Under the pieces are notes generated by a model that was not told where the DNA came from, ran no database searches, and saw only the letters and a list, made by a program, of their open reading frames with translations. This document shows positions 33,632-37,735 of a stretch of 38,809 bases of DNA, piece after piece. The DNA lies in NCBI GenBank assembly GCA_009379825.1, contig WHTA01000056.1, positions 1 to 38,809 of the forward strand, given 5' to 3'. A program made the position numbers and the translations under genes. The stretch comes from Streptosporangiales bacterium (GTDB lineage Bacteria; Actinomycetota; Actinomycetes; Streptosporangiales; WHST01). The number at the start of each line of letters is the position of its first letter. Position 1 is the first letter of the stretch.

Positions 33632-34294
33632 GTGCGCCGCTGCCGGCGAGGTCTGCTCGCGGTCGCGGCGGCGGTGGCGATGTGTCTCACCCTGCCGAGC
33701 GCGGCGTACGGCGCCGGCTACCGGTACTGGTCGTACTGGCGGCTGGCCGACGACGGCTGGGCGTACGCGACGAGCGGCCCGGCCAGCCACCGGCCGGACG
33801 ATGGCTCGGTGGACGGCTGGCGGTTCACCGCGAGCAGCGAGCAGGACGCGGCGGAACCGCGCCGCACGCCGAGCTTCGACCGGGTCTGCGCGGGCACCAG
33901 GATCAAGGACGGCTACAAGCGGGTCGCGCTGGTGCTCGACTACGGCACCGGCAACGACACGCCACCCGGTGAGTCCGCACCGAAGAGCCGACCGGTCACG
34001 AGCTGCGTCGTCGTCGCCGAGGACGCGACGTCGCTCGACGTGCTGAACCGCGAGACGCGTACCAGGACCGCGAGCAACGGGCTGCTGTGCTCCATCAACG
34101 GCTACCCGGAGCGCGGCTGTGCGGAGTCGGCGACGAAGACCGCGACGCCGTCGGCGGCGAGCTCGACCAACGGCGCGGACGACACCGGCGGCAGCGGCGG
34201 GTCGAGCACCGCAGTCGCCGTGCTCGTCGGGCTGGCGATCGGGGGCGGCCTGATCGTCGCGATGACCGCGCGCCGCCGCAGGGAGAACCGCTAG
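33632..34294 (+). CDS. Secreted membrane-anchored companion protein
   Basis: A 220-residue protein: signal peptide (1-27, AYG), a mature domain with YRYWSYWRLADDGWAYATSGPASHRPDDGSVDGWRF and four cysteines (SFDRVCAG, TSCVVV, LLCSI, RGCAE) that could form two disulfides, a Ser/Thr/Gly-rich linker, and a C-terminal helix (about 193-212) then RRRRENR. It is recognisable as a streptomycete-type secreted family found next to the toroid protein (from memory); function unknown. GTG 33632 starts 13 nt after the upstream stop; there is no clear ribosome site, so coupling is likely. Its stop shares CTAG with the MFS stop on the other strand. Confidence 0.72.
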   Translation: MRRCRRGLLAVAAAVAMCLTLPSAAYGAGYRYWSYWRLADDGWAYATSGPASHRPDDGSVDGWRFTASSEQDAAEPRRTPSFDRVCAGTRIKDGYKRVALVLDYGTGNDTPPGESAPKSRPVTSCVVVAEDATSLDVLNRETRTRTASNGLLCSINGYPERGCAESATKTATPSAASSTNGADDTGGSGGSSTAVAVLVGLAIGGGLIVAMTARRRRENR

Positions 34295-35586
34295 CGCCGG
34301 TACGTACCGTCCGTCGAAGAGTTCGCCGGCAACGCTTCAGCTGGTGACAAGTCGCGGATACGGTCCCGGTCCATCAGCCGCCAGGCCGGCTGCACGAACG
34401 GCAGCACCGTCGCAAGCAGGTACGCGCCGCCGATGGCGAGCAGCGCCGTGGTGAGGCCAAGCGTGGACACCAGCCAGCCGGCAACCAGCCCGCCGACGGG
34501 GATGCCGGCCCACGCCAGCGCGCCGACGGCGCCGAGCACGCGGGCGCGCAGGTGCTCGGGGATCCGCTCGAACTCCGCCGCGCCGAGCAACGGGGTGATC
34601 GCGCCCGCGGTGAACCCGCTCACCGCGGAGATCACGAGCACCGCAGGCAACCCGTCGGTGGCGGCGAGCACGAAGTACGACGGCGAACCGGCGACCAGGA
34701 AGCAACAGGCGTAGGTGATCCGGCGCGGTAGCCGATGTGCCACCGCGCTGAACAGCGCGTTGCCGAGCACCGCGCCGACGCCGAACGCCCCGCCGATCAG
34801 CCCGACACCGGTCGCCGACCCCACGGCGTCCTTCACCCAGACCGGGATGAACACGGCCATCCGCGCCTGGTCGAACAGGTTCGTGGCGAGCACCATCAGC
34901 GCGATGGCCCGCAGCAGCGGGTCGCGCACGGTGTACGCCAGACCGGCGCGCAGGTCGTGCAGGTAGCCGCGTACGCGCGCCGGCCGTGCCGCGTCAGCGT
35001 CCCCAGCCGGGCGGCGGCGGACGAACCACTGCACCAGCACGGCCGCGACGACGAAGCTGGCCGCGTCCATGTACAGGGCGTTGACCGCACCGACGGTGGC
35101 GGCGAGCACGCCACCGAGCGGCGTGCCGACCAGGCTGCCGACCCTACTGACCCCGTCGAGCAGGCCGGCGCCGCGCTCCATCGGCACCCGCGCCTCGACG
35201 ACCGTCTCCGGCACCAGCACGTGCTTGGCGTTCTCCCCCGGCCCGCGGAACGCACCGAGCACCGCCACCAGCACGCACAGTCCCCAGAACGGCAGCCGGT
35301 CGGTGCTGTACAGCAGGGGCACCGCGACCAGGATCGCCGCGCTCGCGGCGTCGCACAGCACGCTCACCCTGCGGCCGCCGAACCGGTCGACGAACGGCGC
35401 GGCGAACGCCTGCAGCACGACGAACGGCAGCATCTCCGCGAACACGACCAGGCCGGTCTGTACGGCGCTGCCGGTGGTTACCAGCACCAGCCAGGGGATC
35501 GCGACCACGGACACCTTGCTGCCGGTGGCCGAGATGCCGGCCACCGGCAGCAGACCGGCGAGGCCCGCACGGCGGCGGACGGGCAT
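34291..35586 (-). CDS. MFS efflux transporter
   Basis: A 431-residue permease with about twelve hydrophobic helices of the major facilitator superfamily (MFS-1/DHA3-like). The loop motif after helix 2 reads DRFGGRRVSVLCD, and the central region has RRRPAGDADAARP. It exports an unknown compound by proton antiport. ATG 35586 is 2 nt after the ArsR-type regulator's stop, so the pair is one operon and the pump is probably controlled by that regulator. The stop overlaps the secreted companion's stop on the other strand. Confidence 0.88.
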   Translation of the reverse strand: MPVRRRAGLAGLLPVAGISATGSKVSVVAIPWLVLVTTGSAVQTGLVVFAEMLPFVVLQAFAAPFVDRFGGRRVSVLCDAASAAILVAVPLLYSTDRLPFWGLCVLVAVLGAFRGPGENAKHVLVPETVVEARVPMERGAGLLDGVSRVGSLVGTPLGGVLAATVGAVNALYMDAASFVVAAVLVQWFVRRRPAGDADAARPARVRGYLHDLRAGLAYTVRDPLLRAIALMVLATNLFDQARMAVFIPVWVKDAVGSATGVGLIGGAFGVGAVLGNALFSAVAHRLPRRITYACCFLVAGSPSYFVLAATDGLPAVLVISAVSGFTAGAITPLLGAAEFERIPEHLRARVLGAVGALAWAGIPVGGLVAGWLVSTLGLTTALLAIGGAYLLATVLPFVQPAWRLMDRDRIRDLSPAEALPANSSTDGTYRR

Positions 35587-35588
35587 CG

Positions 35589-36272
35589 CTACTCGGCGCC
35601 GTCGTCGGCGGAATCGCCGGCCGGCTGGTCGCCGGGGAAGAAATGCGGGAAGACCTGGAACTGCGCGGCCACCAGTCGCGCACCCTCCGGGCGCTCACCG
35701 CTGCTCGCGTTGCGGTACCTGTCCACGAGCTGCTTCATCTCGTGGTGCAGCTGTTCGGCCTCGGCCGGGGTCAGCCGCAGCATGCTGTCGGACATGGTGC
35801 TCGCGTCCTGCCACTCGTCCGGCAACGCGTCGCGGTGGTCGAGCCACCGTTTGATCTTCTGGGCGTAGAGATCGGCTGAGGCGTACAGGTAGTCGTGGGC
35901 GAGCACGTCCGTCTCGCCGGCGTCAGGATCCTCGGTGTCGCCGCGCTGCACCACCATGCGCGGGTCGAACCAGGTGCGCTGGTGCTTCGCCTTCCACCAC
36001 CGTTCCCTGGTCGTGCCGCGGCCCTCGTCCTCCTCGATGAAGCCGTACGCGGCGAGCTGCCGCAGGTGGTAGCTGGTCGCCGCCGAGCTGAGCCCGAGGC
36101 GGTCTGCGATCTTCGTCGCGGTGGACGGCCCGTCCGCCCGCAGCAGGCCGAGGATCTGCGGCCGCAGCGGGTGGGCCATCCCCCGCAGCGACTTCGCGTC
36201 GAGCAGGGTGTCGTGCTCGGGGTCGAAGCCCTTCGGCAGCTTCTGCGGCTGCTCCTCGGGTGGGTCCACCAT
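35589..36272 (-). CDS. ArsR-type winged-helix regulator
   Basis: A 227-residue regulator. The winged helix lies at about 30-100 (MAHPLRPQILGLLRADGPSTATKIADRLGLSSAATSYHLRQLAAYGFIEED; wing GRGTTRERWWKA). No metal-binding CxC motif is seen, so it likely senses an organic ligand through the C-terminal helical domain (about 120-205). ATG 36272 has GGAAGG upstream. The downstream MFS gene is 2 nt away. It is probably autoregulated through the four 14-bp repeats at 36501-36548. Confidence 0.85.
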   Translation of the reverse strand: MVDPPEEQPQKLPKGFDPEHDTLLDAKSLRGMAHPLRPQILGLLRADGPSTATKIADRLGLSSAATSYHLRQLAAYGFIEEDEGRGTTRERWWKAKHQRTWFDPRMVVQRGDTEDPDAGETDVLAHDYLYASADLYAQKIKRWLDHRDALPDEWQDASTMSDSMLRLTPAEAEQLHHEMKQLVDRYRNASSGERPEGARLVAAQFQVFPHFFPGDQPAGDSADDGAE

Positions 36273-36302: not shown

Positions 36303-36470
36303 TCAGCCCGCGTACGACGCGTGCACGCGTACGGCGACGAGCCGCCTCTTGGCCTTCCGGTACCTGCGCTCGGCCCGCCGCACCGCCTGCGCCTGGCGTA
36401 CTGCCCGGTTCGCCGCCGCCTCCGCACGCAGCTCCTCGGCGCGCACCTGGACCAGTTCGTCGTACCGCAT
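36303..36470 (-). CDS. 55-residue basic coiled-coil protein
   Basis: A 55-residue reading frame, short but well supported: ATG 36470 is preceded by GGGAGGTGG, and the frame has a TGA stop at 36303. The protein is nearly all helix with many Arg/Ala/Glu (MRYDELVQVRAEELRAEAAANRAV, RRAERRYRKAKRRLVAVRVHASYAG), so a nucleic-acid- or membrane-associated short helix is likely. It is first in the operon, 30 nt before the regulator. No family recognised. Confidence 0.6.
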   Translation of the reverse strand: MRYDELVQVRAEELRAEAAANRAVRQAQAVRRAERRYRKAKRRLVAVRVHASYAG

Positions 36471-36494
36471 CAGCGCCACCTCCCGTCGACGCCA

Positions 36495-36523
36495 AGACTA
36501 CTTTGCAAAGATCTCTTTGCCAA
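36495..36523 (-). promoter_or_regulatory. Promoter of the 55-aa/ArsR/MFS operon
   Basis: Reading leftwards, TTGGCA (36523-36518) and TAGTCT (36500-36495) are 17 nt apart, a near-consensus pair placed 25 nt upstream of the small ORF's ATG. Both boxes overlap or abut the 14-bp repeats, so a bound regulator would block it. Confidence 0.7.
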
Positions 36524-36556
36524 GCTTTCTTTGCATGGGTTTCTTGGCACCCCACG
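36501..36556. repeat. Four 14-bp direct repeats (probable operator)
   Basis: CTTTGC recurs at 36501, 36515 and 36529, and a variant CTTGGC at 36543, each exactly 14 bp apart. The first is the perfect palindrome CTTTGCAAAG. They cover the -35 and spacer of the promoter on the minus strand. I infer binding by the ArsR-type protein encoded next to it. Nothing else of note is in 36471-36594. Confidence 0.75.
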
Positions 36557-36594
36557 GACGCCGCCCTACCAGGGCAGCGAACCGGCGAGCGCGG

Positions 36595-37701
36595 CTAGCG
36601 GGTGGCGGGGGTGACGAACGGCGGCTTGACGACCTGGCACCTGGCGGCGCGGCCGCGTACGTCCACGGTCACCTCGTCGCCGACGGACACCTCGCGGTCG
36701 AGCAGCGCCAGCGCGATGCCGACCTTCTTCGTCGGCGAGAACGTGCCGCTGGTGACCGTGCCGACGGGCGCGCCGTCGCGGGAGACGGTCATCTCCGGGC
36801 GCGGGATCGCGCGGTCGACCGCCTCCAGGCCGCGGACCGACCGGCGGGCGCCGTCCGCGCGCTCCTTGCTGAGCACGTCCCTGCCCCAGAACGCCGGCTT
36901 CTGCCAGCCGACCGCCCAGCCGGCCCGCGCCTGCACCGGCGTGATCTCCTGGGAGAGCTCGTGGCCGTGCAGCGGGTAGCCCATCTCGGTACGCAGGGTG
37001 TCGCGCGCGCCCAGGCCGGCGGCCTGCACCCCGTGCTCCGCGCCGGCGCCGAGCAGCGCGTCCCACAGCCGCGCGGCATCCGCGTACGCGGGCAGCAGCT
37101 CGTAACCCTGCTCGCCGGTGTAACCCGTGCGGCACACCACGACCTGGCTGCCCTGCCACTCCGCGTCCACGAACGACATGTAGTCGTGCTCGTGCGGCAG
37201 GCCGACGGCACGCAGCACGTCGGCGCTGCGCGGGCCCTGCACGGCCAGCACGCCGTACGACTCGTGCTGGTCGGTCACCGTGACGCCGGCGGGCGCCTCG
37301 GCCTGCAGCCGACGCACCACCTCGGCCGTGTTCGCGGCGTTGGGCACCAACAGCACCTCGTCGGCGCCGCGCAGATACGCGATGAGGTCGTCGATCACTC
37401 CCCCGGTCGGGTCGTCGCAGCACAGCGTGTACTGCGCCTGGCCGGGCGCGATCTTGCCGAGGTCGTTCGCGAGTGTCCCGTTGACGTAGTCGGCGGCCCC
37501 GCTGCCGCGGACGACCGCCTTGCCCAGGTGGCTGACGTCGAAGATGCCGACCGCCTCACGGACGGCGGTGTGCTCCTTCACCACGCCGCCACCGGCGTAC
37601 TCCAGTGGCATCTCCCAGCCGCCGAACTCGGCGAACTTCGCGCCGTTCGCCGCGTGCCAGTCGTGCAGGGGTGAGTGCTTAAGGTCGGCTCGATCGCTCA
37701 T
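36595..37701 (-). CDS. gcvT: Aminomethyltransferase (glycine cleavage T protein)
   Basis: A 368-residue tetrahydrofolate-dependent T protein that releases ammonia from the aminomethyl-H-protein and makes 5,10-methylene-THF. Landmarks: [68 protein letters not shown] and [14 protein letters not shown] 37701 starts [19 protein letters not shown], the usual N-terminus; no good ribosome site is visible, and TACGGT 7 nt upstream could be a -10 of a leaderless transcript. gcvH/gcvP are not in this window. Confidence 0.95.
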
Positions 37702-37735
37702 GCCGTCGACCGTACCAAGAGCCGCAGGCCCCACC

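Follow-up and report, generated by a model that had tools for sequence, protein, structure and literature searches.

A predicted operator array of overlapping 16-bp dyads at the promoter of a winged-helix regulator and MFS transporter operon in a Streptosporangiales bacterium

The regulator-transporter operon and its upstream array

The window analysed here, a stretch of 38,809 nucleotides from a Streptosporangiales bacterium (GenBank assembly GCA_009379825.1, contig WHTA01000056.1), carries on its minus strand, in this order, gcvT, an intergenic array of repeats, a gene for a 55-aa protein, the regulator gene P0001 and the transporter gene P0002 (Table 1), with regulator and transporter co-oriented behind one promoter. 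P0001 is a member of the HTH_20 family (PF12840; 46.8 bits against a cut-off of 27, residues 32-81) and matches the arsR HTH_5 model less well. The AlphaFold2 model of P0001 (pLDDT 89.5) contains a winged helix-turn-helix with a recognition helix at residues 63-75, followed by long C-terminal helices. Profile search related P0001 to ArsR/SmtB-type winged-helix proteins and matched solved structures, where phmmer found no match; the nearest full-length solved folds are Kfla_6221 (4g6q) and PH1932 (1uly, 2cwe), both partial matches with a TM score of about 0.4-0.5. No relatives were returned when the genome contigs were searched with the single P0001 sequence. The earlier note on this DNA had called the regulator ArsR-type, a name that does not hold in its metal-sensing meaning: P0001 scores 40.1 bits against HTH_metalloreg (NF033788), under the cut-off of 55, and it has no cysteine, as is true of most homologues, and metal-thiolate sensing was rejected on these two grounds, the cysteine test covering cysteine-based sites only.

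P0002 falls under the cut-offs of the named MFS models, and as an efflux-type MFS gene downstream of the regulator it agrees with the efflux context that had been claimed for the locus. The product of the 55-aa gene is arginine-rich and found no family match in Pfam and NCBIfam profile searches. Its ORF homologues in the congeners G004 and G002 gave local alignment scores of 96-121 relative to shuffled maxima of 52-73; at the other loci array and regulator lie too close together to leave room for such a gene.

Table 1. Features of the locus, with positions in the window and the basis of each assignment
Feature	Positions	Strand	Basis or remark
gcvT	36595-37734	-	Neighbour on the other side of the array
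Predicted operator array, four overlapping 16-bp dyads at 14-bp pitch	36491..36548		Sequence, repeat family D1, shuffles, template scan of homologous loci
Dyad 1, GCCAAGACTACTTTGC	36491..36506		5/6 pairs; over the -10; sequence
Dyad 2, GCAAAGATCTCTTTGC	36505..36520		6/6 pairs, perfect; sequence
Dyad 3, GCCAAGCTTTCTTTGC	36519..36534		5/6 pairs; over most of the -35; sequence
Dyad 4, GCATGGGTTTCTTGGC	36533..36548		3/6 pairs; left arm degenerate; sequence
Predicted -35, TTGGCA	36518..36523	-	Register kept in relatives
Predicted -10, TAGTCT	36495..36500	-	Register kept in relatives; weak consensus match
Gene for 55-aa basic small protein, operon gene 1	36303..36470	-	Homologous ORF at the same place in both congeners
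P0001, HTH_20 winged-helix regulator, presumed repressor binding the array	35589..36272	-	Pfam, model, co-occurrence
P0002, MFS transporter, presumed efflux pump under control	34291..35586	-	PF07690 and PF05977

On the plus strand, CTTTGC begins at 36501, 36515 and 36529 and CTTGGC at 36543, a spacing of exactly 14 bp that had already been seen in the earlier note and is confirmed here (repeat family D1). Each of these four hexamers forms the right arm of a 16-bp dyad, GCnAAG-N4-CTTnGC, and adjoining dyads overlap by one GC, the last GC of one 16-mer being the first of the next. Scored over the intergenic region 36471-36594, the four-copy repeat reached 23/24 and the four dyads 19/24, and each score was equalled in none of 1,000 dinucleotide shuffles; given these shuffles, the array is not a product of chance. 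The earlier reading had overlooked both the dyads and the 55-aa gene, so that its repeats stand while its unit and extent (14-bp repeats over 36495-36556) give way to a 16-bp dyad and the limits of Table 1.

A search of the window's own genome found no second array with these half-sites, as expected if control is local. Repeats before other efflux operons, which had been proposed as a check, were thus absent from this genome in this form and present before homologous operons across Actinobacteria. A paralogue of P0001 in the same genome (L039/L099, contig C13) has its own 14-bp array, with half-sites of the TTTCGAAA type, and two such predicted switches would therefore coexist in one genome; a P0002-like transporter was looked for beside the paralogue gene and was not found.

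Recurrence of the array at homologous loci

Homologues of P0001 were found in 276 of the 297 genomes of the order at E ≤ 0.001, a count whose weak matches may be other winged-helix genes. At the DNA level, the exact two-dyad pattern matched in 18 of the 297 genomes of the order and in 5 of 396 genomes of the phylum (22 in total, the window's genome being in both sets); each match lies directly upstream of a P0001 homologue, and the reversed control gave 0. Due to a generic palindrome-only array finder missing or misplacing several arrays, homologous loci were examined with a template scan in which a dyad was counted when 7 of the 10 specified bases of GCnAAG-N4-CTTnGC were present. Upstream of the regulator, 85 of 95 distinct loci had two or more dyads with a pitch of exactly 14 bp, relative to a mean of 1.7 loci for shuffled sequences and 0 for stretches inside genes, and 66 had at least three. 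At pitches of 10-13, 15, 16, 18 and 22 bp no locus had two or more dyads, and at a pitch of 20 bp six loci did.

The template had been derived from sequences of this first set, and seven of the 95 loci (L102, L103, L104, L106, L111, L121 and L123) had entered through the array pattern itself, so the check was made on a second set, 73 additional actinobacterial homologues that had been retrieved by protein search only (six-row alignment). The array was present in 71 of these 73 loci, with at least three dyads in 60; the hosts include Streptomyces, Kitasatospora, Micromonospora and Plantactinospora. Pitch and dyads are kept at regulators that are just 31-55% identical. An MFS gene lies downstream of and co-oriented with the regulator in 69 of the 95 loci of the first set, as in the window, and in 21 of the 95 a P0002-like transporter is absent within the stretch examined.

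By the template, about 10 of the 95 loci lack an array, and most of these belong to a distant clade with another layout. In this clade (L080, L083, L084, L087, L088 and L097) the half-sites are CTTCAT/ATGAAG and the repeat is about 22 bp rather than 14; in five of the six loci a transporter-like gene lies upstream and divergent. In the second set, the regulator of L134 (Streptomyces caniscabiei) is preceded by eight consecutive dyads at 14-bp pitch, several of them near-identical (AAAGAGATATTCGC), which suggests that this array grew by slippage or duplication.

Binding unit, promoter register and half-site classes

Arrays start with GCnAAG and finish with CTTnGC, with a whole wide dyad at either end. 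For a narrow CTTnGCnAAG palindrome the outer flank would have to supply CTT, and it had all three of these bases in none of 83 arrays, compared with 112 of 146 interior junctions. As the completing flank is missing at the ends and present inside, the dimer site is most likely the wide 16-bp dyad, its half-sites 10 bp apart, or about one helical turn. The same distribution bears on an alternative that we regard as unlikely, in which P0001 would bind as head-to-tail monomers on 14-bp direct repeats, or through the narrow palindrome CTTTGCAAAG, and form a filament along the promoter. Such a filament would account for a direct repetition that is as striking as the dyads, and for interior junctions that are perfect narrow palindromes in many loci, but it would not explain array ends that complete wide dyads, and by established helix-turn-helix geometry two recognition helices in successive major grooves could not be fitted to half-sites as close as the narrow ones. 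With 10.5 bp per turn, the 14-bp pitch of the wide dyads corresponds to 1.33 turns; successive dyads are then rotated by about 120 degrees and three dyads close four turns, in agreement with the earlier proposal that the copies face different sides of the helix.

The predicted promoter, TTGGCA-N17-TAGTCT on the minus strand, lies within the array and does share bases with the repeats as had been reported: dyad 1 contains the -10, the spacer runs through dyads 1 and 2, and the -35 spans the junction of dyads 2 and 3. The description of this promoter as near-consensus was too generous, since the -35 matches at 5 of 6 positions and the -10 at 3 of 6 (relative to TATAAT), and the total of 8/12 against the sigma-70 consensus is under the 9/12 threshold of the promoter scan, which did not report it. 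A simple promoter expression recognised both elements in only 45 of the 95 loci; in these 45, to which the spacer figure applies, the -35 is formed by the CTTnGC core, and a 17-nt spacer follows it in 40. Relative to the array, the promoter of the window keeps the register seen in its relatives, with one further dyad, over the -10.

At L015, L017, L026 and many other loci of relatives the likely start codon of the regulator lies about 6-8 nt past the predicted -10, and the regulator mRNA of those relatives may therefore be leaderless, with the array outside the transcript. The window differs from these in having a leader and the small gene between promoter and regulator.

Half-sites were grouped into the classes CTTTGC/CTTCGC, CTTGGC, CTCTGC/CTATGC, CTTCAT and TTTCGA-like; in the window's genus CTTTGC and CTTGGC are mixed. 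Mapped on the regulator tree, these classes can be explained by 7 changes, where 6 is the minimum and shuffling gives a mean of 31.6, and half-site class tracks regulator clade while the pitch mostly stays. The recognition-helix residues that differ by class are 64 (G, A or S), 68 (Y, with W in the CTCTGC class) and 72 (Q/R/K, H, M or T), a link that is imperfect in that L016 and L094 have A at residue 64 and yet CTTTGC-type sites. As each large class corresponds to one clade and the events are few, these data support co-evolution of regulator and half-site and do not prove the contacts.

Proposed mode of control and comparison with known systems

The array is most likely the switch by which the pump operon's own repressor shuts the operon off. 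More fully, with a probability of roughly 0.8, it would be the operator of an autoregulated efflux operon, bound by P0001 dimers side by side and repressed until an effector releases them. One P0001 dimer would sit on each 16-bp GCnAAG-N4-CTTnGC dyad, with both recognition helices on the same face of the DNA and separated by one helical turn, and neighbouring dimers would be offset by 14 bp and about 120 degrees round the helix. Three or four dimers would in this way surround the promoter, covering the -35, the spacer and the -10 and keeping RNA polymerase off, until the effector, which is probably transported by the MFS pump, frees them from the array and allows the small protein, P0001 and the pump to be made. 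We infer binding, dimerisation, cooperativity and repression by P0001, and induction of the operon, from comparison of loci: P0001 is taken as the binder due to strict co-occurrence and clade-linked half-sites, repression is read from the geometry of dyads over a promoter and cooperativity from the fixed pitch, and the frequent co-oriented MFS gene downstream points to a transported compound as the effector. The comparative evidence thus favours the earlier suggestion of a regulator array over the promoter, with the operon's own ArsR-like protein as its likely binder.

It is improbable that P0001 or another protein instead activates from the array, or both activates and represses, for example as an effector-dependent activator; some winged-helix regulators of the broad superfamily are named activators (HlyU entries in the profile search) and the array does reach upstream of the -35, but dyads over the -35 and spacer in the recognised loci, and over the -10 in the window, form a layout that would occlude polymerase. 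That the repeats are no P0001 site at all, and represent replication iterons, a chance tandem duplication or an RNA element of the transcript, is hardly credible: slippage can make tandem repeats, and L134 has eight near-identical dyads, but pitch and dyads persist at widely diverged regulators, an RNA leader was rejected because the array would be untranscribed in the many relatives with a start codon close behind the -10, and the term iteron-like was abandoned because no replication gene adjoins the array in the stretch examined, its neighbours being gcvT, the small gene and the HTH_20 and MFS genes, and because the dyad array recurs before homologous regulators rather than at a replication origin.

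Repression by P0001 from such an array would have parallels in two established groups. Repressors of the ArsR/SmtB type (SmtB, CzrA, NmtR, NolR and SrnR) bind, as a family, to dyads that overlie the promoters of transporter operons, typically as one or two 12-2-12 sites. P0001 resembles them in its winged helix-turn-helix, by sequence profile and by fold, and differs in being about twice as long, with C-terminal helices, cysteine-free and under the metalloregulator cut-off, and in having a predicted operator of two to eight dyads that overlap in a strict array. TetR-type efflux autorepressors such as QacR are encoded beside the pump gene and have overlapping dimer sites on the promoter. The present locus is alike in its regulator beside a pump, its overlapping predicted dimer sites and its presumed release by the pump substrate, whereas the regulator is of another family and the array is longer, with a pitch fixed at 14 bp. 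The titles of the nearest structures, Kfla_6221 and PH1932, both HTH_20 proteins, name no operator, and Kfla_6221 is titled as functionally unknown. Efflux operons that are autoregulated through a dyad operator are a known kind, of which the strict, extendable array is a variant.

No published description of the operator or the regulator family was found in the open literature, searched by family words and operator sequence; the search reached few subscription papers, and this negative is weak evidence of absence. Two kinds of match from the search were set aside, SCO7424 because the paper concerns a MarR-family regulator, and the matches to operator sequence words because they were, judged by their titles, unrelated work. 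We see about even odds that the loci represent a widespread and apparently undescribed family of actinobacterial repressors that form a helical sheath of dimers round their own efflux promoter, with a fixed 14-bp pitch, two to eight dyads and a half-site that has changed several times. If this sheath reading is true, the pitch would be imposed by contacts between neighbouring dimers, and the strictness of the pitch predicts that such contacts between adjacent dimers are specific. The more than 150 loci checked form a large natural set of regulator-operator pairs in which the half-site varies at constant pitch, and through which the specificity of a little-characterised winged-helix family can be read and tested. 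To judge from the neighbouring MFS genes, such control may extend to many export pumps of actinobacteria. A natural pitch variant was also seen: upstream of the regulator of L036, the first step between CTTTGC copies is 12 bp and the next 14 bp, which looks like the loss of two bases from one spacer and offers a useful natural test of the pitch.
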